64,000 nt of DNA from a virus. The translations under genes and the position numbers were made by a program. Every line of letters begins with the position of its first letter. Within the stretch, counting starts at the first letter, position 1. This document shows positions 4,697 to 60,797 of this stretch, piece by piece. The stretch covers positions 1 through 64,000 of IMG/VR virus record IMGVR_UViG_3300028840_002850; one strand, given 5' to 3'. The notes under the pieces were generated by a model. The model ran no database searches and was not told the origin of the DNA. It saw nothing but the letters and a program-made list of their open reading frames with translations.

Positions 4697-4697
4697 T

Positions 4698-5510: not shown

Positions 5511-7084
5511 AGAAAAAATATCTTTTTATATTTATACTGCTATTTATTTTAAGCTTTCCGATGTGGGGCTTTTCTGCGAATCATTACGTCCGAAGTGGTA
5601 GCAGTGGAGATGGTTCAAGCTGGTCAAGTGCATGGGACGACCTACCCTCAAGCCTAACTAGGGATGATACATATTATGTCGCAGATGGGTCTTATTCATC
5701 TTATACCTTCGACGATTCGGTAGATTCAACCAAACTCATTACGATAAAAAAAGCTACAGTAGCAGATCATGGGACATCTACCGGGTGGAGTGATTCTTAC
5801 GGAGATGGACAGGCGACTTTTGGAAGATTAACATTTTCCACCAGTTATTTTACCTTTACCGGAGTCACGCGAGATGCGGGCGATTGGTCTGATAATTCAG
5901 CCTATGGGTTTTACGTCGATGGAGGGACAAGTGGAAACGGCGCTAAACTTTTTAATGTGTCGGGTGCCGACAATATAACCATACGATACGTCTATGCAGC
6001 CTATGATTATGTGCTCGGCGGTGAGGACATTTCAGAAAATCAAAATCATGGGCTTTACAGCACTGGCGGTTCAAACAATATCACCATGGAGTATTGCTTT
6101 ATAAAAAATACTTCATGGAAAGCGGCTATTTTAATCAACTCTTCTACCGGACCATTTGTTGTTCGTTACAATAGATTTGAGAATATCGGCAAAAAAGAGC
6201 TGTGGTCTGCGCGTGGAACAGATAATGTTACTTTTGCCTATAATTACTGTAAAAATATTGCTGGCACCGGCGCAATAGTCGCTGACGATTCGGATGATTG
6301 GGATATATACGGGAATATCATTTGGAACCCATCGGAAAGTTACACGTTTTCAGATGTTACGATTGGGACATGGACAGGAGATCATCCCTCTCGAAATGAA
6401 ACTCTTAATAATTGGAAGATATATAATAATACTTTTTATGATGTTCACGACCAAATTCAAATTCAACACGGGACTGGAAACGAGGTTAGAAACACTCTTG
6501 TTATTGGGGAGAGTATCTCAATAAACGGGTCTTTAACGGCCTCCCACAATGACCAAAACGCATCTACCTCTGTTGTAACGGATGCTGCCAATGGCGACTT
6601 TACGCTATCTACTGCTACCACCGCAGGGTATTCTCTTTCTTCCCCGTATAACGTAGACATGAATGGCAACACTCGCGGTAGTGACGGCACTTGGGATCGA
6701 GGGGCTTATGAATATGTGGCTGAGGATTCAAGCCCCCCAACACTACAAAGCGCCACAATTGCTTCAAATGGAACTACCCTAACCCTCGTATTTGACGAAA
6801 ATGTAACTCAGGGATCTGGATACGATGACTCAGATTGGGATTTGGATTCAGGACAGCAAGGGGATAATGTAAGCATAACCTATGAAAGTGGAGATGGAAC
6901 CACCACTCATATTTATAACATTTCCAAAACTATCTGGATTGGCGACACAGCAAACATCGACTTCAATGGAGACGCGAACTCAGAGGAGGATGGCAGCGGG
7001 AACGATTTAGCGGCTATCGTATCAGACAGTGTTGTTAATAACTCAATAGTGAACCTAACTGCTTTGGGATTACAGATTCAATGA
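5501..7084 (+). CDS. Exported right-handed beta-helix protein
   Basis: A 527-residue protein. The likely start is TTG 5501, which has GGGAG 7 bases upstream and overlaps the previous stop; TTG 5483 is the alternative. A strong signal peptide ends at WGFSA|NHYV. Residues about 25-360 carry repeated N-x-T-I/V-x-Y and Y-N-x-F strands (NNITMEYCF, VRYNRFENI, WKIYNNTFYD) typical of parallel beta-helix polysaccharide lyases and tailspikes. The last 110 residues (SPPTLQSATIASNGTTLTLV) resemble an Ig-like SwmB-type domain. It may be a depolymerase-type spike; substrate unknown. A Sec signal is unusual for a tailspike. Confidence 0.65.
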   Translation: MSIKKKYLFIFILLFILSFPMWGFSANHYVRSGSSGDGSSWSSAWDDLPSSLTRDDTYYVADGSYSSYTFDDSVDSTKLITIKKATVADHGTSTGWSDSYGDGQATFGRLTFSTSYFTFTGVTRDAGDWSDNSAYGFYVDGGTSGNGAKLFNVSGADNITIRYVYAAYDYVLGGEDISENQNHGLYSTGGSNNITMEYCFIKNTSWKAAILINSSTGPFVVRYNRFENIGKKELWSARGTDNVTFAYNYCKNIAGTGAIVADDSDDWDIYGNIIWNPSESYTFSDVTIGTWTGDHPSRNETLNNWKIYNNTFYDVHDQIQIQHGTGNEVRNTLVIGESISINGSLTASHNDQNASTSVVTDAANGDFTLSTATTAGYSLSSPYNVDMNGNTRGSDGTWDRGAYEYVAEDSSPPTLQSATIASNGTTLTLVFDENVTQGSGYDDSDWDLDSGQQGDNVSITYESGDGTTTHIYNISKTIWIGDTANIDFNGDANSEEDGSGNDLAAIVSDSVVNNSIVNLTALGLQIQ

Positions 7085-8799
7085 AAAAATATCTCATTAT
7101 ATTATTACTCATTCCGGTATCGGCTTTTGGTGCTGAAACCTTTTATGTTTGCGCTGGCGGCGATGGAACTCTACCGGAAACCAACACCTGTGCAACTGCA
7201 TGGGATTGGGATGACGTGGACAACACAAATAACTGGGCTGCAACAGAAGCGGATGACACAAAGATAGGCCCGAATGATACAGTGATATTCAAAGATGACG
7301 GCGGCACATTTAACCTATCAAGCGATATTGACACCTATCAGGCGGGAAGTTCGGGGAGTGTCATAACATTCATTGCTGAATCTGGTGACACCCCGACCAT
7401 CACGGCGGGAACATCCCTAACCGGATGGACCGTGTATTCTGGAAATGTGTATTCTAAAAGTACGGGCAATATTGAAAGTACGGGCCTATATGAAGACGGA
7501 GTTGTGCTAAACGAAGAAATGAGTGCTGGCGCTGTTGATGCTGCCGGAGAGTGGCACTGTGACGAGTCAACCACTTATGTTTGGACTACTGACGACGCCG
7601 ACCCCGACACACACACCATGACCACTTCTGCTATAACGTGGCTGATGTCCATTAAGCATAGCTACATCATTGTAGATGGGTTGAAATTTAGCGATCACTA
7701 TGAGCCGATGGTCATTAACAGCGGTGCTGATAATGTAACAGTTCAAAACTGTACGTTTGAAGATGTATATTTTACCGCAATTCAGGTTGCAGATGGTAGC
7801 GGATCGAATAATTTAAACTTATCAGACAATGTGTTCACCCGTGTTGGTATGGGCGGTATATACGTTTACAGTCAAAACGATACTGGCATTGCCAATGGTA
7901 ATGTATGCACCGATATGAATTATCAAGAGTGGGCGGTCAATGCCAACAACACCACAAACTCTGACGGCCACTGTGTTGCAATATGGGGAAGTGATAGCTG
8001 GACTATCCACGAAAATAAAGTTGTCGATTTTAGGGACGCATTTGCGTTGTACGGACACAATGCAACCACACATACGGCTGCAAATAATTCTATTAAGTAC
8101 AATTATATCCAGGGAAGTGCCGCCCTAAAATCCCACTATGATGGTGGCTCTTACGGTAAGGGTATAACAATAGGAAGCACCAGCCAGCCGGACGAACATT
8201 ACAGCAATGTGGTAGCTTATAACATAATAGATCAAGCCCATATCGGCATGAGAATTAATAGGTCGAATACTTCAGGTAAGGGGAATCTGGTCTATAATAA
8301 CACCTTTTATGATTGTGATAGGGGTTTGGATTTAAGGCAGGAAGCAGACTACAATGTTGTCAAGAATAACATTTTTTCAGAAACAGACTCATATCATATC
8401 TATGAATATTCGGGAACTACGGGAGCCAATCTTGTTTCCGATGAAAACCAGTTTTATCCCGACACGGGCGGTTCTGCGGCACCAGATTTTGCAGATAGCG
8501 GAAGCGACAAAGATCAGCTAAGTGATTGGCAAACTTCAACATCTCAAGACGCAAATTCGGATGCCGGCGATCCAGGCTTAACTAATCCGTCGTCGGGCGA
8601 TTTTACACTAAGCTCCGATCTTGAGGGTGCTGACCTTGGAGCCACATACGATGACGGACTAGATCCAATCAACACAAACTGGACAAACACACCACCCACC
8701 ATCGGCACACTCGATCAAGATGATTACTTACCGTGGGATCGGGGCGCTTTTATATTTGCAGAAGAAGAAATTACAATACAGGGAGTAACAGTATATTGA
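7081..8799 (+). CDS. Second exported beta-helix protein
   Basis: A 572-residue protein whose ATG overlaps the preceding stop (ATGA). A short signal peptide is cleaved after FGA (MKKYLIILLLIPVSAFGA). The body has beta-helix coils with motifs such as VQNCTFEDVYFTAIQV, LNLSDNVFTRVGMGGI and VYNNTFYDCDRGLDL. It ends in WDRGAFIF, matching the WDRGAYEY end of the helix in the neighbouring protein, so the two are probable paralogues. Glycan depolymerase or surface-binding spike is the best guess. The gene runs directly into the lysis genes. Confidence 0.65.
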   Translation: MKKYLIILLLIPVSAFGAETFYVCAGGDGTLPETNTCATAWDWDDVDNTNNWAATEADDTKIGPNDTVIFKDDGGTFNLSSDIDTYQAGSSGSVITFIAESGDTPTITAGTSLTGWTVYSGNVYSKSTGNIESTGLYEDGVVLNEEMSAGAVDAAGEWHCDESTTYVWTTDDADPDTHTMTTSAITWLMSIKHSYIIVDGLKFSDHYEPMVINSGADNVTVQNCTFEDVYFTAIQVADGSGSNNLNLSDNVFTRVGMGGIYVYSQNDTGIANGNVCTDMNYQEWAVNANNTTNSDGHCVAIWGSDSWTIHENKVVDFRDAFALYGHNATTHTAANNSIKYNYIQGSAALKSHYDGGSYGKGITIGSTSQPDEHYSNVVAYNIIDQAHIGMRINRSNTSGKGNLVYNNTFYDCDRGLDLRQEADYNVVKNNIFSETDSYHIYEYSGTTGANLVSDENQFYPDTGGSAAPDFADSGSDKDQLSDWQTSTSQDANSDAGDPGLTNPSSGDFTLSSDLEGADLGATYDDGLDPINTNWTNTPPTIGTLDQDDYLPWDRGAFIFAEEEITIQGVTVY

Positions 8800-9005: not shown

Positions 9006-9355
9006 AATTGTTCCTTAAATTCAAAAGTGAAAATATATTTCGTAACTACCACATTGTTCCGCATCATCCGAATTTGATTGAGTTTGAATATTGGTGGTTG
9101 GGTGAGTTTGGGGAATCAATTGTCACTTCTGCTTATAGACATGGCGACAAGGGAGTCCACGGGCAAAATCCTCTCAGGGCAATAGATTTAAGGTCTTGGA
9201 TTTATAGCAACCCGGAAGGAATGGCGAGGTATGCTAATACTATCTGGATTTACTCTCCCCAAGAGCCTAAAAAGAAATCCGTACTCTATCATAACGTAAG
9301 AGATAAGGGCATTCATTTCCATCTGCAAGTTTGCGACCAAACAATAAAACTATAA
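9002..9355 (+). CDS. M15-like zinc peptidase, probable endolysin
   Basis: A 117-residue protein starting at ATG 9002, which overlaps the previous stop. The core SAYRHGDKGVHGQNPLRAID plus a C-terminal IHFHLQV fits the LAS/M15 fold. Zinc ligands would be His in GVHG, Asp in AIDL and the last His of HFH. Such enzymes cut peptide cross-links in peptidoglycan. Its size is that of a single catalytic domain and no signal peptide is present. Its place between a membrane protein and a holin-like gene supports the endolysin call. Confidence 0.65.
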   Translation: MKLFLKFKSENIFRNYHIVPHHPNLIEFEYWWLGEFGESIVTSAYRHGDKGVHGQNPLRAIDLRSWIYSNPEGMARYANTIWIYSPQEPKKKSVLYHNVRDKGIHFHLQVCDQTIKL

Positions 9356-9379
9356 AACTATCTTAATCCAATAATTTTA

Positions 9380-9409
9380 TTGACAAAATTCTCACTTTTT
9401 GTAAGAATC
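9380..9409 (+). promoter_or_regulatory. Lysis-side promoter overlapped by repressor-type operator
   Basis: A TTGACA -35 box (9380-9385) is followed at 16-17 bases by a TAAGAAT -10 region. The spacer holds TTCTCACTTTTTGTAAGAA, which closely matches the operators at 26888-26907 and 26321-26337 beside the repressor gene. It would start transcription about 20 bases before the holin SD (AGGAGG). The implication is that the immunity repressor silences this operon in the lysogen. Confidence 0.6.
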
Positions 9410-9432
9410 TATATAAACATAGGAGGTTTAAA

Positions 9433-9654
9433 ATGGCGAATGGCGAAACTCCGGTAAAACCCGGATGGCAAACGACAGAGTTCTGGGTAACATTGATAGT
9501 TCAACTTGTCGGCTTGGTGGCTGCGCTTGGCTATATAGTACCCGAACAGGCAAGTGCGCTGAGTCAAGCTGCCGTGCAAATCGGTGGCGCTATTTCAATG
9601 GTAGCGGCCGCTTTCGGCTACAATCTTAGCCGTGGCATGGCAAAGAAGCAATGA
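9433..9654 (+). CDS. Holin-like protein, two transmembrane segments
   Basis: A 73-residue protein with SD AGGAGG 7 bases upstream. It has a short polar N-terminus, TM1 (FWVTLIVQLVGLVAALGYIV), a turn, a second helix (VQIGGAISMVAAAFGY) and a basic tail (RGMAKKQ). This is the usual layout of a small class II holin. It sits just after the endolysin, behind its own promoter. The family cannot be named by eye. Confidence 0.6.
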   Translation: MANGETPVKPGWQTTEFWVTLIVQLVGLVAALGYIVPEQASALSQAAVQIGGAISMVAAAFGYNLSRGMAKKQ

Positions 9655-9657
9655 TGA

Positions 9658-9783
9658 ATGCTTGTGAACGCTCTAAAACTAAAGACACTCCTGAAAAGAA
9701 TGTGGGGCCGGATTGTTGACCAGCAAAAACAGATCAATCAATTAAGAATCGAACTCCATGGTCTAAAGGAAAAGCAGACGTGA
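9658..9783 (+). CDS. Small basic coiled-coil protein followed by an in-frame TGA
   Basis: A 41-residue ORF (MLVNALKLKTLLKRMWGRIV then a Q-rich helix) that starts 4 bases after the holin stop. It ends at TGA 9781-9783. The same frame then stays open for 44 more codons to TAA 9916 (9784-9918) with no ATG or GTG start, giving an acidic helical stretch (SLSQDLRHLEEEVLG). It could be a spanin-like gene broken by a nonsense mutation, or a readthrough product. No SD of note. Confidence 0.4.
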   Translation: MLVNALKLKTLLKRMWGRIVDQQKQINQLRIELHGLKEKQT

Positions 9784-9937
9784 CTGACTAAGGCTGTTGG
9801 CCGTGAAGTCAACGACTCTTTATCGCAGGACTTGAGACATCTTGAAGAAGAGGTCTTGGGTCCGAAGAGGCCGCGCAACTACCCTCACCCGTTAAGTCCA
9901 TCCGGTACGAAGGATTAACTCTAACCTATGTGACGTT

Positions 9938-10873
9938 ATGTACTATGGGAAACAGTATGCTGAAAGAATAAAGAGTTTAAAAGCAACTACAAACCTGAGT
10001 CATAGAGGAATCGCAGAAAAGTTAGGTTGTTCACCCCGCACAGTACGGCGATATGCTGAAAGCAGATGTCCGACAGAAAGAAGGCGAAGGGGGAAGATAT
10101 TATTATTTGATATAGAAACTTCTCCGATGGAAGTTTATGTTTGGGGGTTGCACGACAAGCGCAATCAATACATTTCACCGGAGAATGTAATTAAAGATTG
10201 GGCAGTACTGTCGTGGGCGGGGAAGTGGCTGTTTGAATCAGATGTTGTGTCACAGGTTGCCACACCGGAAGAAGCAGAAGCCAGAGACGACGCCAGAATA
10301 CTCAAGGGAATATGGGATTTATTTGAAAAGGCCGATATTATTGTAGCGCACAACGCATTTAACTTTGATGTTAGAAGATTAAATGCACGGTTCATCATTA
10401 ATGATTTCGGTCCCAACACACCTTACAGGGTAATAGACACACTAAAAGAAGCCCGAAAAGTGTTTGATTTTCCAAGCTACAAACTTGACGCGCTGAATGA
10501 AAGATTTGGCTTATCTAAAAAAGTTGAAACAAATTTCAAGTTGTGGGTGCGGTGCATTACGGGTGGCAGGAAAGCATTGCGGGAAATGCAACACTACAAC
10601 AAGTCTGACGTTGTAGCCCTTGAGGAACTATATCTTGCATTGAGGCCGTGGATTAAAAGTCATCCCCCAATGAGCTTGTATCACGATATGATAGATGCCA
10701 TATGCTGCCCGACTTGCGAATCCGAGAAACTCAACTGGAACGGGAACTATACTACACCAGCAGGGAAATACAAATCATTTAGATGTAATAATTGTGGCGC
10801 TATCGGCAGGAGTAGATATTCATGCCTGGAAAAAGACGAAAGGGAGAATCTGGTGATAAGCACCGCGAGATAA
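9938..10873 (+). CDS. HTH / DEDD 3'-5' exonuclease / zinc-ribbon fusion
   Basis: A 311-residue protein with three visible parts. Residues 18-45 form an HTH (LSHRGIAEKLGCSPRTVRRY). Residues 54-235 are an RNase H-like DEDD exonuclease: ExoI-type LLFDIETSP, ExoII-type IIVAHNAFNFDVRR, and a late HYNKSDVVALEEL supplying the final Asp. Residues 258-290 are a zinc ribbon (CCPTCES and RCNNCGA). It lies downstream of the lysis promoter rather than with replication genes. It may be a regulatory or homing-type nuclease; substrate unknown. Confidence 0.6.
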   Translation: MYYGKQYAERIKSLKATTNLSHRGIAEKLGCSPRTVRRYAESRCPTERRRRGKILLFDIETSPMEVYVWGLHDKRNQYISPENVIKDWAVLSWAGKWLFESDVVSQVATPEEAEARDDARILKGIWDLFEKADIIVAHNAFNFDVRRLNARFIINDFGPNTPYRVIDTLKEARKVFDFPSYKLDALNERFGLSKKVETNFKLWVRCITGGRKALREMQHYNKSDVVALEELYLALRPWIKSHPPMSLYHDMIDAICCPTCESEKLNWNGNYTTPAGKYKSFRCNNCGAIGRSRYSCLEKDERENLVISTAR

Positions 10874-10971
10874 ATTACAAGGTATGGAGCTCGCCTAGCG
10901 TTAAATTCCTTAGATGGCGTGTGAAGGATGCTCTTCAGCACCTTTCGGACGCTTACGAAAATAAAGAATGA
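10822..10971 (+). CDS. Hypothetical 49-residue basic protein
   Basis: Overlaps the 3' end of the exonuclease-fusion gene in another frame. It has a good SD (AGGAG, 9 bases before ATG) and its TGA overlaps the next ATG. The sequence is basic and Trp-containing (MPGKRRKGESGDKHREINYK). The SD and tight overlaps on both sides suggest it is a real gene. Function unknown. Confidence 0.45.
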   Translation: MPGKRRKGESGDKHREINYKVWSSPSVKFLRWRVKDALQHLSDAYENKE

Positions 10972-11177
10972 AATATCGAATTGAAGCAATAGAAAAAGAC
11001 GATATTTACACCTTCCTACTCCACCAAAATGGCCCCAAATATTTTAATGTACTCGAAGAAATCTATCGCACCTTGCGAAGCAAATGTAAATATACAGACG
11101 AAACGGGTTCATGGAAAGAGGCATATCAACTTGTAATTGATATTCTAAACGATGCCAATATTGATCTGTATGAATAG
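10968..11177 (+). CDS. Hypothetical 69-residue protein
   Basis: A small acidic alpha-helical protein (KYFNVLEEIYRTLRSKCKY), translationally coupled (ATGA) to the gene before it. It is the last rightward gene before a convergent, hairpin-rich intergenic stretch. No family recognised. Confidence 0.5.
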   Translation: MKYRIEAIEKDDIYTFLLHQNGPKYFNVLEEIYRTLRSKCKYTDETGSWKEAYQLVIDILNDANIDLYE

Positions 11178-17010: not shown

Positions 17011-17826
17011 TCAGTCTTTGCTGTAAAAATTACCCTTCCCAATATACCAATTATTAAGGAAGGTTTTGAAATCAATCGGTTCGGCGTACTTCAAAGATAC
17101 GCGCCAATTATTGTTCATGTGGAATTTCCGAATAGATGGTATCGTCCCTGTTAAGTAAAATTTTTTCATAGCACGTTCAAACGTGGCATAAATTTTAGGC
17201 CAGCGGTCTTTGTGAACTTGAAGTTGCCACTTAGCAAATTTTGGTTTGGGGTTACAAATAAACGGGCACACCACGCAACCAATCCGGTTAAAACCCTCAT
17301 CGTAAAGCGAAGAATAGGGCAGATTGTGGCGCTCGATGTACTCCCATATTTCCCATTCGTTCCAGTAGAATATTGGTTTATAAATCGTATCGCCATTTTT
17401 ATAGGCATCAATTTGAGGGCGCTTTCCCCTTCGGCCTTCTTCTGCCCTGAGCCCCATAAGCCTGTGTTTATATGGCACATCAGCGGTTGGGTCTTTTTTG
17501 AGGAAATCACAGCACCAGCGGGTGCGCTTAGTCGGAAAACCCCTGATTTGTAATTCTTGATAGAATGACTGTTTAGGTTTCTTGATAATAACATCAGGGT
17601 AAAACCGCTTAATGTGCTTAACAATCTCTGGTGGATCAATCCCTGTTGCTGAATAATAGTATCGACATTCAACCCCCGATTTTTCGCATAAATCATAGAG
17701 TACGGCTGAATCTTTGCCACCAGACACGCCAACAACCCAAGGGGCGTCTTCGGGTTTATGTCTAATGATAAATTCAAGGGCTTCTTCTTCCTTCGTTTTT
17801 CCTGATATGGCAATTTGTTGTGCAAT
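17011..17826 (-). CDS. PAPS-reductase-family PP-loop ATPase
   Basis: The PP-loop SGGKDSA is near residue 38 if the frame is read from ATT 17826, the only usable start after a well-placed GGGAGT. Starting at GTG 17727 would delete the WVVGV strand before the loop. Cys pairs (TRWCCDF, GCVVCPF) resemble Fe-S ligands of DndC-like and phage PAPS-reductase-like enzymes. Such proteins activate a substrate with ATP, often in sulfur chemistry. True sulfate reduction, DNA phosphorothioation or nucleoside thiolation cannot be told apart here. The same phage carries a sulfotransferase-like gene at 35694. Confidence 0.7.
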   Translation of the reverse strand: MAQQIAISGKTKEEEALEFIIRHKPEDAPWVVGVSGGKDSAVLYDLCEKSGVECRYYYSATGIDPPEIVKHIKRFYPDVIIKKPKQSFYQELQIRGFPTKRTRWCCDFLKKDPTADVPYKHRLMGLRAEEGRRGKRPQIDAYKNGDTIYKPIFYWNEWEIWEYIERHNLPYSSLYDEGFNRIGCVVCPFICNPKPKFAKWQLQVHKDRWPKIYATFERAMKKFYLTGTIPSIRKFHMNNNWRVSLKYAEPIDFKTFLNNWYIGKGNFYSKD

Positions 17827-17842
17827 ATCTACTTACTCCCGA

Positions 17843-33690: not shown

Positions 33691-35586
33691 ATGAGTGAAA
33701 TAGACTCCATAGAAAATAAAACCCTGAAAACAGGAAGGAAACGCTTTAAGGAAGTCAGAGAATGCCCTGCTGAAAAGACCTTCAGGGAGCAGAGCAACAA
33801 AGACCTCCATTATTTTACCGGGGAGGATCAGGGATGGGACGATGAGGGCGCCCGGGCCAAGCTAACCGAAGAGGGCCGGCCGGCAATGACCTTGAACCGG
33901 GAAGCACCTATCATTCGCTTGATTCAGGGAGCCAGACCCCAAGCTGATGCTCGTTTCACCGCTGTTGAAGAGGGAGATGTCGAAACCGCTGATATTCTTA
34001 ACTCTGTTAAGGATCATGTTGACGGTGTAAACCGCTGGAAATTTATGGAATCAGACTGGTTTAGGGACAGCTTGATTAAAAGCAGGGCAGTGGTGGGCAT
34101 ATTCCCAAGCTATGATAAGGACATCAGGGGTGAGATTGAGCTTAATGTCGAGGATGGCCACAAGTTTTACTTTGACCCCAACGCCAAGAGGCGGGATCGC
34201 TCGGATGGCGATTATATGTTCAAGGTTGAGTCCATGTCCCCCGACCAGGCCAAGCGCATGTGGCCCAAGTCAAAGGGCAAAATAGAAGAACTGACCATAA
34301 ACGCCGATGAGGATGTTAGCGGCCACGTGTCGCGGCAGGAGTCAAAACCCGATGATTACGAGGATTTAAGGTCTGATTACTACGATTCAGCCAACAACCG
34401 GCTTACCGTCGTTTATTACTGGCACAAAGAATACGAGAACGTAACCAAGATTATCGACCTGATGGACCCGGCTAATTCGGTCTTTGAGTCACCCAAGAGC
34501 AAGGAAGAGGTCGAAAACGAACTGGCTGAGATTTCCGATGCGCCCGAAAGATTCAGGGTTGTCTCGGTTGAGTATGTGAACGTGCGCTTTATGGTTTTCT
34601 GCCACGACATCATATTTGAAGAGGGCGACACCCCCTGGTTGCGTGAGGATGGTAAAAGAACGCTGTTAAGCGAGAACTTCCCATATATCTGTGCCGAGCC
34701 CGAAAGAATACACGCTGGAACCCGGCAGGAGCTTATCTCGATCTTAAATCCCCTGCACGACCCTCAGAAGTTTCACAATAAGCTGGCCAGCGCAATTATC
34801 CATATCATCGGCACTACTGCGAATACCGGCTGGGAATACGAAAAAGGCGCTATTTCCCGCAAGGAAGCCCAGAAGCTAAAGAAATACGGCTCCAAGCCCG
34901 GTGTTAACATTACGTGGGAAAAAGATGCACTGGCACAGAACAGAGCCAGGAAGATTCAGCCGACCATACCGCCCCAGTCTCACATGATGCAGGCAAAGCA
35001 GATGGCCGCTGATATTCTGGATATTTCAGGGGTTGAATCACTGGTGAGCACAGAATCATTAGGTAAAGGGGCTTCCGGCAAGGCGATTGACCTGAAACAA
35101 AGGCAGGGCGGCAATATCATCGATTGGGTGTTCGAGTCCTTCAGGTTCTTCCAGCATGTTTTAACCGAGTATGTACGGGATGCCATTCAGGTGCTTTACA
35201 ACTACGAGAAGGTTATCAGGATTACCGGGCCCAACACTCGCTATGTCCGAATTAATGAGAACGTCTACGATCAGATGGGCGCAATTGCGGAGGTTCTAAA
35301 CGATGTTACCATCGGGGATTATGATGTGTCTATCGTGGACAAGGAAGTGCTGCCAACGATGAGGCTTGAGCGATTTCGGGAGTTTGTATCACTGGTCAAA
35401 GAGGGTGCCTTGCAGCTGCCACCGCCCGTTTTAACCAAGGTTGTCATGGAACTAATGGAAGATCCGCAGCTTAAACAGATAGTCGAGGAAGAAATGTCGG
35501 TCTTCGAGCAGCAAATGGCTCAGATGATGCAACAGCAACAGGGCATGGGCGCACAACCTCAACAGATGGGGATGCAGGGGTTTTAA
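33691..35586 (+). CDS. Portal protein, P22-like
   Basis: A 631-residue protein. FREQSNKDLHYFTGEDQGWD, RPAMTLNREAPIIRLIQGAR and SVKDHVDGVNRWKFMESDWF are typical of the P22-type podovirus portal; the C-terminus is Gln/Met-rich (EQQMAQMMQQQQGMGAQPQQ). Somewhat shorter than P22 gp1 (725). Forms the dodecameric DNA gate. Confidence 0.85.
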   Translation: MSEIDSIENKTLKTGRKRFKEVRECPAEKTFREQSNKDLHYFTGEDQGWDDEGARAKLTEEGRPAMTLNREAPIIRLIQGARPQADARFTAVEEGDVETADILNSVKDHVDGVNRWKFMESDWFRDSLIKSRAVVGIFPSYDKDIRGEIELNVEDGHKFYFDPNAKRRDRSDGDYMFKVESMSPDQAKRMWPKSKGKIEELTINADEDVSGHVSRQESKPDDYEDLRSDYYDSANNRLTVVYYWHKEYENVTKIIDLMDPANSVFESPKSKEEVENELAEISDAPERFRVVSVEYVNVRFMVFCHDIIFEEGDTPWLREDGKRTLLSENFPYICAEPERIHAGTRQELISILNPLHDPQKFHNKLASAIIHIIGTTANTGWEYEKGAISRKEAQKLKKYGSKPGVNITWEKDALAQNRARKIQPTIPPQSHMMQAKQMAADILDISGVESLVSTESLGKGASGKAIDLKQRQGGNIIDWVFESFRFFQHVLTEYVRDAIQVLYNYEKVIRITGPNTRYVRINENVYDQMGAIAEVLNDVTIGDYDVSIVDKEVLPTMRLERFREFVSLVKEGALQLPPPVLTKVVMELMEDPQLKQIVEEEMSVFEQQMAQMMQQQQGMGAQPQQMGMQGF

Positions 35587-35693: not shown

Positions 35694-36140
35694 ATGCCAA
35701 GCTTTCTATCACATAAGCTCAAGCTGATATTCTGCCATATACCGAGAACGGGCGGAACATCATTCACGAAAGCCATTGAACCGTATTTAGGGTTTGATGT
35801 CGAAAACGATTTTCCCCAGCACATACCAATGTCTGATTTTGCTATCGGCAGACTCGGCAGGTATTTCGATCAGTACCTAAAGGTTTCGATATGGCGGGAT
35901 GACAGGGAGCGATTTGCCAGTCTGTCGATTGGCGCAGCCCTAGCCCCGCAACTGATTCCAAAGGATGACCCTTACTACTGGCGAACCAACGAGCAGTGGC
36001 TTAACGATCATAAAAATAAGAATCTTGCAGATGTTTTGATTAATTTCGACAGATTACCGGGGAGCGCAGTACGGTTTATCCAAGCCATAACAGGTATTCG
36101 TGTTGATGAATATCCTCATCTGAATAAGAGGGATACATGA
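35694..36140 (+). CDS. Sulfotransferase-like protein
   Basis: A 148-residue protein with the 5'-phosphosulfate-binding loop FCHIPRTGGTSFTKAI (residues 13-28), a 3'-phosphate-type motif VSIWRDDRERFASLS (about 63-77) and the closing PHLNK seen in Sulfotransfer_2-type proteins. It is shorter than the usual 220-300 residues. It would transfer sulfate from PAPS to a sugar or Tyr; acceptor unknown. Odd to find it between portal and scaffold; a PAPS-reductase-like gene lies at 17011. Confidence 0.7.
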   Translation: MPSFLSHKLKLIFCHIPRTGGTSFTKAIEPYLGFDVENDFPQHIPMSDFAIGRLGRYFDQYLKVSIWRDDRERFASLSIGAALAPQLIPKDDPYYWRTNEQWLNDHKNKNLADVLINFDRLPGSAVRFIQAITGIRVDEYPHLNKRDT

Positions 36141-36535
36141 ATCAACCCATTAAACACTGGTCAATCATAGCAATTTCCGGGCCTGAGATAGAGACACGGA
36201 AGGCCAGGCACGACATTCTTTCAGAGCAACTTTATAACAAAGTACTTGCATTTGGTCATCCAGACGATTACGGGCTATACCCCGACACTTCCGGGTATGA
36301 TTCGGATAATTGGGAAGATGTTGAGCTTTTAGACGAGGACGGCAACCTGTTCAGGCACATGACTAAGTGCATGGACGCCGTTTTAGAGTATGTCAACAAA
36401 AAATACAAAAAAGCCAGCAACCTGTACCCTGGGGAGATTGAAAAGTCAATCCACTGGCCGAAAAAAGGTGGCAAGATGTTCTTTGTCACTGGCCACGTTA
36501 CGGTTATGCCGGGAAAGGTAGGGTTACTTCATTGA
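36137..36535 (+). CDS. Hypothetical 132-residue protein
   Basis: Overlaps the sulfotransferase stop (ATGA). Acidic middle (GYDSDNWEDVELLDEDGN) and C-terminal KSIHWPKKGGKMFFVTGHVT. Coupling suggests a shared function with its neighbour, unproven. Confidence 0.5.
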   Translation: MNQPIKHWSIIAISGPEIETRKARHDILSEQLYNKVLAFGHPDDYGLYPDTSGYDSDNWEDVELLDEDGNLFRHMTKCMDAVLEYVNKKYKKASNLYPGEIEKSIHWPKKGGKMFFVTGHVTVMPGKVGLLH

Positions 36536-36717
36536 GTCTTGAATTCGACACATTTGACATTGATGTAACAACCAAAAAAGATGATGTTAATAACTTTCTA
36601 AAGGGTTGTCAGATGTTTTTTATCATAGATTTGCCGAATGGCAAGAAAAGAATATGGGCATCTTTTAGGTACGATGCCATTGACGATAAATTTAGAGAGA
36701 AAGAAACGATCAACTAA
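36532..36717 (+). CDS. Hypothetical 61-residue protein
   Basis: TTG start overlapping the previous TGA. Beta-rich protein (CQMFFIIDLPNGKKRIWASF). Unassigned. Confidence 0.4.
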   Translation: MSLEFDTFDIDVTTKKDDVNNFLKGCQMFFIIDLPNGKKRIWASFRYDAIDDKFREKETIN

Positions 36718-36727
36718 GGAGATGATA

Positions 36728-37060
36728 ATGCCAGAAAAAGCCAAGAAAGAAAAAAAGGTCGAAATGACGGCCGAGATCAAGGACGTTCAGCCAGCGCCAG
36801 AACCGCCATTTTACGAGGCAGACCTTGAGTTTACAAGGATCAACAAGTTCACAGCCCGTTATCGGGTACTAAATTCCGCAGGTGCGCCGCTTGACCTCCA
36901 TCATTTAGAATTCGATAGGAGCGCATTTCCCGAAGACGATGATTTCAACCCTGATTTCATTAACCGGGAACTGCCCAACGATAAGGATCATGCGTCATTA
37001 AGGGAAAAGCAGGCGTATTTCCGGTCATTTATGCGCCTTGCGATGGCGATTGCAAAGTAG
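36728..37060 (+). CDS. Hypothetical 110-residue acidic protein
   Basis: The ATG at 36728 has AAGGAG 6 bases upstream; an earlier in-frame ATG (36638) lies inside the previous gene. Lys/Glu-rich start then YEADLEFTRINKFTARYRVL and a helical C-terminus. Late operon, possibly a minor virion or scaffold-associated protein. Confidence 0.5.
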   Translation: MPEKAKKEKKVEMTAEIKDVQPAPEPPFYEADLEFTRINKFTARYRVLNSAGAPLDLHHLEFDRSAFPEDDDFNPDFINRELPNDKDHASLREKQAYFRSFMRLAMAIAK

Positions 37061-37783: not shown

Positions 37784-38791
37784 ATGGCTAGAAAGATTCA
37801 GACTTTCGGGAGAGCCTTTAATATATGGGGTTCTCTCAGGAAAATCACAACGGTCCTTCAACCGCTAATGAACGAAAGAGGTATGGCAGGTGAACCTGAT
37901 GACCCCACCAATCCAGGTGACGATGCGCTCGAACACGACACCCCTGATGATGCTCCTGGGACTGGCGATGACAAAACTCCCGCGGTCCCAGATCAGGAAC
38001 CCTCTGAGGATGCGCCCGGCGATGAGCCCGGAGCGGAACCGCCAGACAAGACCCCGGCTGATCAAACACCACCGGATGACACACCACCACCGGAAGTTGA
38101 ACAGCTAAATCAGCGTATCGCGCAAATGGAAGCCGACCTGAAGCAGCAGACTGAAATGGCTCAGTTTTACGGCCAGTTCTATCAAGATCACCTTCAGGCG
38201 CAACAGCAACCGGGACAGCAGCAGCAACCGCAGCTTGGACCCGGCCAAGTGGCAGATGGCCAGCCACCGGAAGGCGTTATCAATCCCGGTGATTGGGATT
38301 CACAGGAACATACGGCTAATTGGGTCAACCATACGGTTCAAACCCGACTTGAGCAGGGTTACCAGCAAACGGTTTTGCCAGTTTTGCAGAAGATAACCAC
38401 TGCATTGCAGGGCTTACAGCTGCATTCTGCTAAAGCCGGCAAGGATGATTGGGACGATGTTTACGGTGAGACGATGAACGAGATTTTCACAATGGGGCCT
38501 GACGGCAAGGTTCTCGGCGTGAAAAACCAGGCACTTCTCACATATTTCCAGTCTCAAGGCAACCCGTTTGAATCGATGTATGAGTACGGTCTGACCAAAA
38601 AGACGCCGGAAAAAATTAAAAAACAGGTTCAAGATCAGACCAAAAAAACTGTTGAGAAGCTTTCCAACCGCCCGAAAGGGCCAAAGCAGCCGAAAGCCGG
38701 GGAAACTCCCAAAGATTCACCCGATCTTGATTGGGATACACCCTCAAGTGAGGCTGAGAAGATTCTCGATAAAAGAGGCCTGATCGGTTGA
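37784..38791 (+). CDS. Scaffolding protein
   Basis: 335 residues, AAGGAG upstream. Acidic, Pro-rich N-terminal third (DDAPGTGDDKTPAVPDQEPS), a coiled coil (LNQRIAQMEADLKQQTEMAQ), Gln-rich linker and a basic C-terminal region (KTVEKLSNRPKGPKQPKAGE), as expected for a capsid-binding scaffold. Sits between portal and coat genes, the normal place. Confidence 0.7.
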   Translation: MARKIQTFGRAFNIWGSLRKITTVLQPLMNERGMAGEPDDPTNPGDDALEHDTPDDAPGTGDDKTPAVPDQEPSEDAPGDEPGAEPPDKTPADQTPPDDTPPPEVEQLNQRIAQMEADLKQQTEMAQFYGQFYQDHLQAQQQPGQQQQPQLGPGQVADGQPPEGVINPGDWDSQEHTANWVNHTVQTRLEQGYQQTVLPVLQKITTALQGLQLHSAKAGKDDWDDVYGETMNEIFTMGPDGKVLGVKNQALLTYFQSQGNPFESMYEYGLTKKTPEKIKKQVQDQTKKTVEKLSNRPKGPKQPKAGETPKDSPDLDWDTPSSEAEKILDKRGLIG

Positions 38792-38817: not shown

Positions 38818-39846
38818 ATGGCACTTATTCAATTTACAGGTGGTGTCAACAACAGCCACCGAGTTCAAAGATGGGCCAAAGAATTGTGGCATACCCATCA
38901 AAGGGACCAGTTTTTCAGCGGTTTCCAGGGCAAAGGAACAAATAACATTGTCCAGCTGAAAACTGACTTTGCTAAAAAAGCCGGTTATCAGATGACCGAA
39001 GGCCTGATCATGCCGTTTGAGGGCGCAGGCGTGATCAATGACGAGCTTTTGGAAGACAACGAAGAAGCTCCCGATTTTCACAGCATGACTTGGACCATTA
39101 GCCAGCTGAGAAATGCCGGGCGTCTGGCCGGCGAGGAAACCGAGCAGGCTGTTGAGTACAATCTGCCGGTTGAAATCAAAGACGGTCTTGGCGATTGGAT
39201 GAAGGAAAAGCGCGATGAGGACATCTTTACCGCTATCGCAGCTTCATGTACCAAGATTTATTACGTCAACAGCCGGGCCGGTACGTCTACGGTAGTGGCA
39301 ACCGACCTTTTAACTCTGGCCGATATTTCCAAGGCTAAAACCTATGCCAAATCAACAGCAAACCCGAAGATCCCGCCGCTCAAGATTTCTAAAGTCGGCA
39401 AAAAGACCGTGTATCGCTATCTATTCCTGATGCACGACCATGTTTCTTACGATCTTCTGATAAACGACGCTACCTATCAGCAAGCCACCAGGGAAGCGCA
39501 GCGCAGAGGCGGGGGAAATCCGCTATTCTCCGGTGCGTTGATTGATTGGGACGGCGCGATGCTGTTTGACCATGACAACTGCTCGATTTTCACCGGATGG
39601 GGATCTGGATCTGATGTTTACGGTGCAGAGTCCTACCTGTTAGGTCGCCAGGCGGTTATCGTGGGTGTCGGCGGTTACAGAATAGCCAACAAAAACGGTT
39701 ATCTGAAATGGGTCGAGAAGAAGTTCGACTATGAAAACCAGTTTGGTGTGGCCGTGGGTATCATCAAGGGAGAGGCCAAGTCAGTGTTTAATTCCAAAGA
39801 CTTCTCCGTTGTTGCATATCGTTCAGCCCGTACCAACGTATCTTAA
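38818..39846 (+). CDS. Major capsid protein, N4-gp56/DUF4043-like
   Basis: 342 residues with the best SD of the late region (TTAGGAGG). The opening RVQRWAKELWHTHQRDQFFS, KTDFAKKAGYQMTEGLIMPF and later RYLFLMHDHVSYDLLINDAT, EAQRRGGGNPLFSGALIDWD fit the N4-gp56/DUF4043 capsid family (HK97-type fold). Position after the scaffold supports it. Confidence 0.8.
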   Translation: MALIQFTGGVNNSHRVQRWAKELWHTHQRDQFFSGFQGKGTNNIVQLKTDFAKKAGYQMTEGLIMPFEGAGVINDELLEDNEEAPDFHSMTWTISQLRNAGRLAGEETEQAVEYNLPVEIKDGLGDWMKEKRDEDIFTAIAASCTKIYYVNSRAGTSTVVATDLLTLADISKAKTYAKSTANPKIPPLKISKVGKKTVYRYLFLMHDHVSYDLLINDATYQQATREAQRRGGGNPLFSGALIDWDGAMLFDHDNCSIFTGWGSGSDVYGAESYLLGRQAVIVGVGGYRIANKNGYLKWVEKKFDYENQFGVAVGIIKGEAKSVFNSKDFSVVAYRSARTNVS

Positions 39847-41098: not shown

Positions 41099-41959
41099 AT
41101 GAAGAAACTTTTTACTTTTCTTACAGTCTTTTTGGTTTTAGCTGCATTTTGTGTAGCTCCGGCTGACGCCGCAGTGCAACATTTTATAGCTAAAGTTTAC
41201 AAACAGACAACTGAACGAGCCGACCAGCTGACTGAGATTACCTCCAATATCACCTATCAGGTCTTGGCGACTGATTCTGACACGGAGGAAACTCTTTACA
41301 GCGACACGGCTTTAACCTCAAAAACCAACGCGGTCACGACAACGGTGTTTAACACCCAGGACCGGATTGATTTTTACTGCGACCCGACCGATAGCGGAGA
41401 TGTGCAGGTTGATTTAGTCGTTACGCATACAGACGGTGGGTTTTCGGTATTTGTCGAGGATTTTGATATTTACACCCATAGCATCGTCATCGATGAGAGG
41501 CCCAATATCCTGCATCATGGCATGGTGCTTTTTGAAGATGCCGATGGCGCTTCAACCGATACCGGTGTGGATTTTCTGCCCGATACAGTCATTTTCAACA
41601 TGGCTGTCGAGGTCGTTACCATTGATAACGGCCAGGTCATCGATATTGAGACAGCCGATACCGCCAATGGTTTTGCGGTAGCTGTCCCGATGACAACCGC
41701 GGGTTATTACTGGATCGGCAAGCCGACTATCACTGCCGGTGGAACTGAAACCTATGTTTCCACCGCTGCCTATGCCGGTTCGTTGATGGGAAGCTCGCTG
41801 GCTGGCGCAAACACCGCCACCGATGAGGGTTCTTCCTATCTGTGGCCTCATACTGTCATAACTTCCGGGACTGACGATGATCTGTATTTCGACACAGACG
41901 CCAGTTCTGGTTTTGCGGCAACCGGATATATTCATTACTTTTTTATCCGTATGAGATAA
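41099..41959 (+). CDS. Exported beta-rich protein in the structural operon
   Basis: 286 residues. Clear Sec signal peptide (FTFLTVFLVLAAFCVAPADA|AVQHF), then beta-rich Thr/Asp/Val sequence (TVIFNMAVEVVTIDNGQVID; GYYWIGKPTITAGGTETYVS). AAGGAG SD. An exported product between coat and adaptor genes is unexpected; it may be a periplasmic or surface protein rather than a capsid part. Confidence 0.55.
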   Translation: MKKLFTFLTVFLVLAAFCVAPADAAVQHFIAKVYKQTTERADQLTEITSNITYQVLATDSDTEETLYSDTALTSKTNAVTTTVFNTQDRIDFYCDPTDSGDVQVDLVVTHTDGGFSVFVEDFDIYTHSIVIDERPNILHHGMVLFEDADGASTDTGVDFLPDTVIFNMAVEVVTIDNGQVIDIETADTANGFAVAVPMTTAGYYWIGKPTITAGGTETYVSTAAYAGSLMGSSLAGANTATDEGSSYLWPHTVITSGTDDDLYFDTDASSGFAATGYIHYFFIRMR

Positions 41960-56147: not shown

Positions 56148-58091
56148 ATGGCGACTAATATCACCGGCGTTACAATGCCTACTCCTGGTGGCGACCCCGC
56201 CATTAATGCCAATGGCAACTTCGCAATGGGGGGGCAGATAACCACAGCTGGTGGTGGCGGTTGGAGCGAGTCTGGTGATATGTATTTCCAGTGGGATCAG
56301 GGCCTTGGCGACAGTGAGGGAAATTACGCTGACCTTGGTTCTACCGGCGATTTAAACATAGCGGCTCAGACCAATCCGATAACCGGGTTGCAGACGGAAA
56401 CCGAGCAGCAAGTTACCGTTTACAACGACGGAACAGCCGGTACTTTTTATATTCGTGTTAAACTGATCGAAGACGACTTGACGGAGCATACCACCGCTGG
56501 ACAACAGGTTACGGTAAGTGCTCAAGAACAGCAATCGGAATCGGTTAGCGAGAGCGCTAGCGAGAGTGCCAGCGAATCGGCGTCCGAATCCGCATCTGAG
56601 TCGGCTTCAGAGTCGGCGTCTGAGTCTGCCAGTGAAAGTCAATCAGAGTCAGCCTCAGAGAGTGCTTCTGAATCTGGATCATACAGCGCCTCAGAATCAG
56701 AATCCGCGTCGGAATCCGCTTCTGAGAGCGCCAGCGAAAGCGCAAGCGAGTCTGCCTCCGAATCGGCGTCAGAAAGTGCCTCAGAAAGCGCCTCAGAGTC
56801 AGCTTCGGAAAGTGCTAGTTATTCTGCCTCAGAGTCAGAATCAGCATCCGAATCGGCGTCAGAATCAGCTTCCGAAAGTGCTTCCGAATCTGCCTCAGAA
56901 TCAGCTTCGGAGAGCGCATCCGAGTCGGCCTCATATTCAGCATCAGAATCCGAAAGCCAAAGCGAATCCGCATCAGAAAGCGCGAGTGAGAGTGCCAGCG
57001 AATCGGCCTCAGAAAGCGCGTCGGAATCTGCAAGTGAGAGCGCAAGTGAATCGGCTAGCGAATCTGGTTCATATTCAGCTTCCGAGTCAGAGTCGACCTC
57101 AGAAAGCCAATCGGAATCTGCGTCAGAGTCGGCCAGTGAAAGCGTGTCGGAAAGCGCTTCGGAGAGCGCATCTGAATCGGCATCTGAATCAGCAAGCCCG
57201 TCAGCATCCGGTGGAATATCCGAGAGTGCAAGCGAGAGCGCATCGGAATCGGCTTCAGAGAGTGCGTCAGAAAGTGGCAGCTATTCGGCATCGGAATCAG
57301 AATCTCAATCCGAATCTGCCTCAGAGAGTGCCTCAGAGTCGGCATCGGAGTCACAATCAGAAAGCGCGTCCGAATCTGCCAGCGAGTCAGCTTCAGAGTC
57401 GGCGTCAGAAAGTGGCAGCTATTCGGCATCAGCATCCGAATCGGCCTCTGAGTCTGTCAGTGAGTCTGCCAGCGAATCGGCATCGTACAGCGCATCTGAA
57501 TCAGAATCAGCTTCTGAAAGTGCGTCTGAATCGGCAAGTGAGTCAGCGTCCGAAAGCGCATCGTATTCTGCTTCTGAATCCGAATCGGCATCTGAATCCG
57601 CTTCTGAGAGTGCGTCAGAGAGCGCGTCAGAGAGCGCCAGTTATTCGGCATCTGAGTCTGAATCAGCATCGGAGTCTGCCAGTGAGAGTGCCAGTGAATC
57701 AGCAAGCGAATCAGAGTCGTATTCAGCATCTGAATCAGAATCGGCATCTGAAAGCGCATCAGAGTCAGCATCCGAATCGGCCAGTGAGAGTCAGTCTGAA
57801 TCCGCATCAGAATCCGCATCAGAAAGTGCTTCTGAGAGTGCGTCTGAGAGCGCATCGGAGTCTGAGAGCGAATCTGCATCAGAATCAGCTTCAGAAAGCG
57901 CAAGTGAGAGCGCCAGCGAATCAGCGTCATATTCCGCATCAGAGTCGGAGTCGGCTAGCGAGTCGGTTTCGGAATCGGCTTCTGAGAGCGTGTCTGAGTC
58001 GGCATCACCAAGCGAATCATCTGCAAGCGCATCGGGCGGTGGGTCTGCTACCGGTGGCTGCGTATTTGTGAGTACTATATTAATTGGCTAA
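56148..58091 (+). CDS. Ser-Glu repeat virion/surface protein
   Basis: 647 residues. Residues 1-125 are an Ig-like head ([40 protein letters not shown]). Residues about 127-630 are almost only S, E and A in 4-residue SESA/SASE steps, broken at intervals by SYSASESES. It ends [20 protein letters not shown], a Cys and a hydrophobic tail. Ser codons are freely mixed (agc, agt, tca, tcg, tct, tcc), so protein and not DNA sequence is conserved. Extended acidic stalk; hundreds of Ser could be glycosylated. The next gene is a glycosyltransferase overlapping by 8 bases. Confidence 0.7.
56525..58020 (+). repeat. Degenerate 12-bp coding repeat (SESA units)
   Basis: About 125 units encoding Ser-Glu-Ser-Ala with strong synonymous variation. 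Long antisense and off-frame ORFs here (for example 56518-58071) are by-products of the repeat. Not a CRISPR: no conserved repeat with unique spacers. Confidence 0.85.
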
Positions 58092-60306
58092 AGTATCTGT
58101 CATAATAGCAGGAAGATGTGAACAATATTTTCAAAAAACCGTTGAGTCGGTTTTTGAGTCAGCTAAAGAAGACGTTGAGGTTATGGCTGTTGTTGATGGG
58201 CCGGGGCAAGACCCACCCGTCAAGGAAACAAAAAACACAAAGGTTATAAATCTTCCAGAATCCATCGGGCAGAGGGCAGCTTATAACATGGGTGTTAAAG
58301 AATCATGTGGTGAATATGTAATGAAGATAGATGCTCATGCCTTATTGTCGCCTGGATTTGATGTTAAGTTGAAAAACAACTGCCCACCCAAAACGGTAGT
58401 CTTGCCGGAAATGAGAAGGCTTGATCATAGGAAATGGAAACCAAAACCAAGGGGTAAAACTCTTTTCATGTATCCCGGCCTTGATTTGTACTGTCATTAC
58501 TGGAAGGATTACAAAAAACGACCAGAGGCAAAGGTTGACTATCCCGAAGTTATGACAGGGCAGGGATCGTGCTGGTTTACAACAAGGGAATGGAACGATT
58601 ATATAGGATTGCTCGATGAGGGTGTGGGATCATGGGGCAATGTCGGGATCGAGGTTTCTTTAAGAACATGGCTTTGCGGTGGTCGGCAAATAGCAAATAA
58701 AAATTGCTGGCAAGCCCACTGGTTTAGGGTTTCAGAGGGTGGTTTCCCATATCCGTTTTCAGGAAGACAGGTAGCCAGGGCGCACAAGTACACATGGGAA
58801 AACTACTATTTTAAAGATAACGCCTTTAAAAATCAAGTTAGACCGTTTCATTGGTATATTAAAAAATTTGCTCCTGTACCTTCGTGGGAAGTTTATTTAA
58901 AAGATCAATACAAACCCAATAGAGTTATCGTATATTACACAGATAACAATCTTGAGAGATCACTTGCTGATGCGGCAAGGAAGAATTTGATAAAAGCGGC
59001 TGGGCCAATTCCGATTATAAGCGTTTCTCAGGAACCTTTAAATTTCGGTCAAAATATATGTGTCGGCAAAAAACCAAAAACAAAGTTGTCAATGTACGAG
59101 CAAATGCTTGAGGGTGTAAAAGCCGCACCGGATGATTCTTTTATTTATCTATGTGAACACGATGTATTTTATCATTATAGCCATTTTGAAAAAGTACCGC
59201 CCAAAGATGATGCTGTATGGATAAACCAAAATAAATATCACTGGCAGCAGGGAAATCATTTTTATCTAAAGGCGAAGGACCAGAAAGCATGGAGCATGGC
59301 AACTGGTTCTAAAAAATATTTATTAGAAAAACTTGAAACCACCGTTAAAAATAAAATGGGTGAAATGAAGGTTAGGTGGTTTAAGTATAATAGTGAACGG
59401 CCAAACATTGATATACGGCATGATAGGAACTTAACAAAAGGAATAAAAGCACACAAGAAACAGATTTTTAATATCGCAGGGTGGGGAAGCCCTAAACATT
59501 TTAAATCCGTTGCAAAATATAAAGGGACAATGCGGTTTGATATAATTCAATGGCTAATAGATTTTTATGATTTTACATCGTACCTTGAGATTGGAGTAAA
59601 TAAGGGGCATACGTTTAAAGTTATAAAATGCGAGTTAAAGCATGGCGTTGATCCCAAAAGTAAATTTGCAACACACAAGGTAACAAGTGACGAATATTTT
59701 AAAGGTTGTGATTTAAAATACGATATTATTTTCGTAGACGGGTTGCATGAACACTCACAGGTAAAGCGGGACATCTTAAATTCACTTGATCATTTAAAGC
59801 CGGGTGGGGTTATTGTGGTTCACGATTGTAAACCCCGTAATGAAAAAGAGCAGCACGTTCCCAAGCTTCCTAACCAAAAAATATGGGTTGGAGATGGGTG
59901 GAAAGCATTTGTTGAGTTACGCGAACGCAATGATCTTTATATGTATGTTGTGGATACAAATAATGGCGTTGGAATAATCCGGCGCGGTTTTCAGGTGCCA
60001 CTAAAAAGAGATTGCCCTCTTGATTGGGTAAATTTTCAAAGAAATACAAAACGATGGTTGAAATTAAAAACGCCGGATGAATTTAAAAAATTTGAGCATG
60101 ACCTTTTTGAAGTTAAGAAATACAAACCGATGTCGCTTAAAATGATGGAAAAGCAGGGTGGTCGGCCAGGAACCATTTGTCAAGAATTAAGGGAAGTGTA
60201 TTACAACATAGACAGTGAAGACCTAAAATATAAACTTCGGGTTTGTATGGCAATGGTTAAGTCGATGCACAGGCGCTTAAACGAATACAAAGAAAACTTG
60301 TCTTAA
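58084..60306 (+). CDS. Glycosyltransferase-methyltransferase fusion
   Basis: 740 residues from TTG 58084, overlapping the Ser-Glu gene. Residues 1-260 are a GT-A family 2 domain ([31 protein letters not shown]; DxD-like [13 protein letters not shown]). Residues 280-430 form a second sugar-transferase-like domain ([37 protein letters not shown]). Residues 475-640 are a class I SAM methyltransferase ([52 protein letters not shown]). It probably builds and caps a glycan, plausibly on the preceding Ser-rich protein (inference). Confidence 0.75.
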
Positions 60307-60797
60307 TGCACGAAAACAGCTATAAATTAATGAGGGGATTTGTCAGAAAGTATGTTGATTTGGACAAGCCGTTATTAGTTGCCGAAATTGGCAGTATGCA
60401 ATACCACGACCAGCCCTGGTTATATAGGAATCTTTTTCACGACAAGCACGTTTATTTGGGAATTGATATTGAAGATGGGCCAAATGTAGATTGTGTTTTG
60501 AAAAATCCTTACGATTGGAAAGAGCTTAGAGACACTTCTTTTGATATCATCGTAAGTGGCCAGATGCTTGAACATTGCGAAAAATTCTGGTTAGTGGCTA
60601 AAGAGATGAAAAAAATCATAAAACCCGGTGGTTTGATTTGCCTTGTCGCTCCCTGGATGATGGGCAAGCACAAGGCTCCGGTTGATTGTTGGAGGATTTT
60701 ACCGGACGGGATGAAGGTTATTGGGGATTTGATGGGTGCGGATACTGTTGAGGCCCGAAGGTCAAAAAAAGATTGCATAGGTATTTTTAAGGTGTAG
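60306..60797 (+). CDS. SAM-dependent methyltransferase
   Basis: 163 residues. LLVAEIGSMQYHDQPWLYRN (motif I region), YLGIDIEDGPNVD, FDIIVSGQMLEHCEKFWLVA and IIKPGGLICLVAPWM are the Methyltransf_11 pattern. Overlaps the glycosyltransferase stop by one base, so probably modifies the same glycan. Confidence 0.75.
   Translation: MHENSYKLMRGFVRKYVDLDKPLLVAEIGSMQYHDQPWLYRNLFHDKHVYLGIDIEDGPNVDCVLKNPYDWKELRDTSFDIIVSGQMLEHCEKFWLVAKEMKKIIKPGGLICLVAPWMMGKHKAPVDCWRILPDGMKVIGDLMGADTVEARRSKKDCIGIFKV

Follow-up and report, generated by a model that had tools for sequence, protein, structure and literature searches.

What is encoded by a 148-codon gene that lies between the portal gene and the putative scaffold gene of a phage head operon, and why it is found there, are the questions raised by this locus. 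The window, i.e. the whole stretch of DNA analysed, covers 64,000 nt of a viral record of 64,697 bases. The ORF runs from an ATG at 35694 to a stop codon at 36138-36140. It begins directly after a short ORF behind the portal gene, and its stop codon overlaps the start of the next gene (ATG 36137). As proposed in an earlier sequence-only reading, it is a real gene in this position, flanked by genes with portal and capsid family matches; the gene at 37784-38791, between it and the capsid gene, had zero family matches and is called scaffold by its position. The features of the locus are listed in Table 1. Elsewhere in the late operon, the protein encoded at 41099-41959 has a signal-peptide-like N-terminus (MKKLFTFLTVFLVLAAFCVAPADA), which is unusual for a gene adjoining capsid genes. 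This protein is conserved in L118 (13539-14399) and also in L132 and L134.

Table 1 Features of the sulfotransferase locus and of the corresponding loci in related phages. Coordinates are those of the window unless a record is named; A4 is an alignment of 40 sequences
Feature	Position	Strand	Basis or remark
PAPS_reduct-family PP-loop protein (SGGKDS)	17011-17832	-	PF01507 match
Portal gene, left edge of the putative cargo slot	33691-35586	+	P22_portal, E 5.2e-80
Mini-sulfotransferase gene, 148 aa	35694-36140	+	ORF, homologues, alignment, AlphaFold2 model, shuffle tests
Predicted PAPS-binding loop (5'-PSB) FCHIPRTGGTSF, residues 13-24, Arg18 at the catalytic Lys/Arg position	35730-35765	+	Identity in A4; PMC11625862
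His43, candidate catalytic base	35820-35822	+	Identity in A4; role from the family His base, PMC11625862
Predicted 3'-phosphate-binding motif R68-x4-R73-x2-S76	35895-35921	+	R68 and S76 identical in A4
PHLNK, protein end just after	36114-36128	+	Residues 141-145
132-aa gene overlapping the sulfotransferase stop, without family	36137-36535	+	ORF list, family searches
Small gene, slot landmark	36638-37060	+	37% homologue in sister-phage slot (L214 9594-9953)
Putative scaffold gene, right edge of slot	37784-38791	+	Position ahead of capsid; homologues likewise in L131, L132, L134
Major capsid protein gene	38818-39846	+	Phage_capsid_3, E 4.3e-33
Glycosyltransferase-2 / Methyltransf_24 fusion	58084-60306	+	Methyltransferase homologues beside mini-sulfotransferases in L035, L049, L050, L063
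SAM methyltransferase	60306-60797	+	34% homologue in sulfotransferase locus L028
L110, gene order	portal 3071-5005, sulfotransferase 8001-8441, putative scaffold 9026-10003, capsid 10021-11028
L165, gene order	portal 3725-5632, sulfotransferase 6282-6881, putative scaffold 6952-7965, capsid from 8001
Sister phage G011, first slot genes			GT2, PIG-L deacetylase, ATP-grasp, GT4, homologue of window 36638-37060
Sister phage G011, next slot genes			NDP-sugar epimerase/dehydratase, Bac_transf sugar transferase, TPP-enzyme subunits, DegT aminotransferase
Sister phage G011, end of slot			FkbM methyltransferase, hexapeptide protein, another methyltransferase; then scaffold, capsid

Searched with the 148-aa protein, Pfam returned Sulfotransfer_2 (PF03567) with an E-value of 0.041 and 14.4 bits, below the gathering cut-off of 22, and PHROGs returned a galactose-3-O-sulfotransferase family with an E-value of 0.034. 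Scanned as a single protein, the query had no match in viral or genome contigs; the portal protein likewise gave none in the viral contigs, and only alignment queries were successful. By tblastn against GenBank phages, neither the query nor the L049 protein was matched and the L110 protein had one marginal match, and the query alone had no match in a PDB sequence search. Scans driven by an alignment identified relatives of the query in phages and bacteria. With A4, the PDB search found sulfotransferases at an E-value of 2e-5, and 34 of the 40 aligned sequences match PF03567 at E≤0.01.

As the relatives in A4 were found through the P-loop, the remainder of the protein was tested separately. For this, a profile of 23 sulfotransferases picked on the P-loop region only was relied on, since one other profile had partly been picked by query similarity and another was very diverse. 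Residues 26-148 of the query scored 12.4 bits against the P-loop-picked profile (maximum of 2000 shuffles, 7.8), and the whole query scored 50.9; shuffles that left the P-loop intact and scrambled the rest reached 41.1 at most. The result was weaker for a more diverse motif-only set, where the tail score was reached in 5 of 1767 shuffles and the full score in 19 of 2000. The strongest evidence for homology is transitive. The protein has a short orthologue in L110 (47% identity) and a longer one of 199 aa in L165 (29% identity, E 8e-18), the latter matching PF03567 end to end with 54.4 bits (E 2.7e-14), above the Pfam cut-off. These two orthologues settle the relationship, and the 148-aa protein is best described as related to the PAPS-dependent Sulfotransfer_2 family but divergent and shortened at its C-terminus. 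The sulfotransferase homology and the PAPS-loop residues that had been claimed before are thus borne out by the alignment, the shuffle tests and the orthologues. On another phage contig (L041), two sulfotransferase-like ORFs are arranged in tandem (4390-5007 and 4977-5636).

The motifs that had been named from the letters are present in the protein: the PAPS-type loop lies within FCHIPRTGGTSF, the R..R..S motif is RDDRERFAS (residues 68-76), and PHLNK is found at residues 141-145. The residues H15, P17, T19, G21, H43, R68 and S76 are identical in 40/40 sequences of A4. The loop HIPRTGGTS combines the conserved Lys/Arg, here Arg18, with the conserved Gly of a PSB loop, and the roles of the PSB Lys/Arg and of the His base in the sulfotransferase family have been described (PMC11625862). 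The position of a His (or Glu) base is presumably taken by His43, and the Ser on the 3'-phosphate-binding helix is Ser76. The full PxxRxxS consensus is not found, as Asp70 replaces Pro; Arg73 and Ser76 are kept.

AlphaFold2 with A4 predicted a sulfotransferase fold with a pLDDT of 93.5 and a pTM of 0.87. In this model, strands are located at residues 4-6, 11-14, 62-67 and 114-117, in keeping with the central sheet of the family, which has 3-5 strands together with strand-loop-helix and strand-turn-helix elements. The model from the single sequence was uninformative (pLDDT 44), and the fold therefore rests on the alignment. Most BFVD matches at E≤0.001 carry a sulfotransferase annotation and come from phages or giant viruses; Foldseek found zero matches in the PDB at this threshold. 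With VIA-align, a heparan sulfate (HS) 6-O-sulfotransferase (5t03) had a Z-score of 7.8 over 139 residues, level with guanylate kinases at 7.9, and SULTs reached 6.4-7.5. This tie is expected because the P-loop core is common to both, and it is the sequence that decides for a sulfotransferase over a guanylate kinase. Structure prediction had been proposed as a check on the sulfotransferase assignment; the predicted fold is of sulfotransferase type and contains the PAPS pocket residues, rather than a different fold or a pocket without them.

The PF03567 match in the query extends no further than profile position 160 of 192, a truncation that the sequence-only reading did not mention. The query and the L110 protein both stop just past PHLN, while full-length relatives run about 34 profile positions further. 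No remnant of the C-terminal segment was found downstream of the gene in any forward frame, and an error in the sequencing of a single phage therefore does not account for the shortening. Between the query and L110, pN is 0.35 and pS is 0.71 with synonymous sites near saturation, which indicates constraint. A tree without L165 supports one origin of all short forms (100/83). With L165 added, the capsid-slot proteins of the query phage, L110 and L165 fall into one clade (96/89), which would make the short forms products of independent losses; a single clade of short forms was not rejected in this tree (AU p 0.405).

To the position of the gene, a comparison across phages is informative. The order in the window is portal, sulfotransferase, small genes, putative scaffold and capsid, and a sulfotransferase is found between portal and putative scaffold in L110 and L165 as well (Table 1). 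The capsid proteins of these two are only about 34% identical to that of the query phage, so the arrangement is either old or repeatedly exchanged. Among 50 relatives with portal and capsid visible, most carry in the slot the scaffold gene with no more than a few small genes besides, and L165 is the only one with a sulfotransferase in it. In the sister phage G011 (L134/L214), whose portal and capsid proteins are 55% and 80% identical to those of the window phage, the interval from portal to scaffold extends over about 14.6 kb and consists largely of polysaccharide genes. The homologue of the small gene at 36638 is a shared landmark, and the sulfotransferase of the window thus lies in the same interval, between the portal gene and this landmark, as the first glycan genes of the sister phage. 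The portal-scaffold slot has the look of a site at which surface-glycan genes are carried as cargo. Within the glycan cluster of the sister phage, an 84-aa ORF (L214 12295-12549) is 47% identical over 49 aa to part of the window capsid protein; it looks like a capsid-gene remnant from recombination in the slot.

A second group of mini-sulfotransferases (L035, L049, L050, L063 and L114) is encoded in phages amid genes for glycosyltransferases (GTs), FkbM and Methyltransf_24 proteins; the cluster of L049 is located between the terminase and a PF04860-type portal gene. Identity between the Methyltransf_24 neighbours of this group and the methyltransferase part of the 58084-60306 protein in the window reaches 48%. 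The G+C content of the 58084-60306 fusion gene is 0.387 compared to 0.45 for the window, which suggests a recent gain. In the L110 record (44.7 kb), which contains the closest orthologue, nothing matched GT2, Methyltransf_24 or PAPS_reduct, and an adjacent glycan pathway is therefore not obligatory.

The reading that we favour, with somewhat better than even confidence, is that the gene is cargo of the slot and encodes a small PAPS-dependent Sulfotransfer_2-type enzyme whose C-terminal segment has been lost and which sulfates a glycan of the virion or the cell surface. Its activity, glycan acceptor, late timing and biological effect are what we infer from sequence and gene neighbourhood. The sulfotransferase would be expressed together with the late head genes and would bind host PAPS via the HIPRTGGTS loop, with Arg18 contacting the bridging oxygen and Arg68 and Ser76 the 3'-phosphate. 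His43 would deprotonate the acceptor hydroxyl, and a sugar residue in a virion or cell-surface glycan would receive the sulfate. The sulfated glycan could then differ in charge and recognition, with effects on e.g. adsorption or superinfection. Of the glycan sulfation that the sequence-only reading had suggested, the glycan part gains from the polysaccharide cluster in the sister slot and from the mini group in glycan clusters; the acceptor may belong to the virion, be a host glycan or be something else. More tentatively, and with less than even confidence, the slot may be a swappable site for coat-glycan genes, one form of which is a single minimal sulfotransferase that sulfates a virion or host glycan late.

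An active sulfotransferase could also act on something other than a glycan, either a protein of phage or host, such as a head protein modified at a tyrosine, or a small molecule. In the query phage, L110 and L165, the gene between portal and scaffold is without glycosyltransferase neighbours, the L110 record as a whole has no GT2 or Methyltransf_24 match, and so short a protein would leave little room for a polysaccharide groove. However, glycan genes fill the same slot in the sister phage and the other mini group is located in glycan clusters, and we regard this alternative as unlikely, at about one chance in a handful. Catalysis may instead have been lost with the C-terminal segment, leaving a protein of the head operon that binds PAP/PAPS or has a structural role. 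The missing 34 or so family positions without a downstream remnant, the replaced Pro of the 3'-phosphate motif and the Pfam score below cut-off would fit such a loss. Yet the P-loop, His43, Arg68 and Ser76 are kept throughout A4, minis included, pN between query and L110 is well below pS, and conservation of His43 is unneeded for binding alone; a loss of catalysis is accordingly given a low probability.

The suggestion that the gene and the PAPS-reductase-like protein jointly control the PAPS pool as part of sulfur metabolism did not hold up. It started from the PF01507 match on the minus strand at 17011-17832. CysH PAPS reductases have a C-terminal catalytic cysteine in an ECGxH motif. This motif is absent from the translated 17011 protein, which carries CC and CxxC cysteine pairs and is probably not a true PAPS reductase. 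PAPS_reduct was found in one of the 11 records searched, that of the window, and not in the 10 other records of sulfotransferase-bearing phages, many of these records being fragments. Moreover, a sulfotransferase uses up PAPS only by modifying an acceptor, and control of the pool is thus highly improbable. A chance ORF with a P-loop-like string has a negligible probability: the Pfam match alone is weak, but the same-slot orthologues refute this explanation, and the shuffle tests also speak against it. Sulfation of a surface glycan remains the preferred reading.

The protein resembles PF03567 enzymes such as HS2ST and HS6ST in the PSB loop with a basic residue, the position of the His base, the Arg/Ser of the 3'-phosphate site and the order of strands and helices, and its full-length L165 orthologue lies above the Pfam cut-off. 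It differs in size (148 aa compared to about 200-300), in the loop Arg in place of Lys, in the Asp for Pro in PxxRxxS, and in the lack of the C-terminal segment with a score under the cut-off. Annotated phage sulfotransferases with a similar fold by structure match are those of phiRSL1 (B2ZYD5) and Prochlorococcus phage P-SSM7 (E3SP23); Gp5.1 of Roseobacter phage SIO1 (Q9G0I0) is a further structure match. These phage proteins have 188-285 aa. Mycobacterial Stf0 shares an Arg as PSB basic residue and a reduced three-strand central sheet (PMC11625862); it is a larger, glycolipid sulfotransferase, and the comparison concerns these two features.

Many phages are annotated with sulfotransferases. 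Sulfotransfer_3 occurs in OM43 phages, and the function of phage sulfotransferases is described as unclear (PMC10580990). In the open-licence literature, neither experimental work on any phage sulfotransferase nor a description of such a short form or of its constant position in the capsid operon was found. Phage sulfotransferases are already known in annotation; here the gene occupies one capsid-operon place in three diverged phages. The polysaccharide cluster of the sister phage in the same place provides a concrete, testable class of substrate, namely surface glycans, and the 148-aa protein raises the question of the minimal size of a PAPS sulfotransferase. Concerning the supply of PAPS, an unsystematic look at the window identified no APS kinase. 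The annotation of Ralstonia phage phiRSL1 includes a sulfotransferase-like protein as well as an APS kinase (BFVD B2ZYD5, B2ZYE1), and some phages may therefore supply PAPS for their own sulfotransferase.
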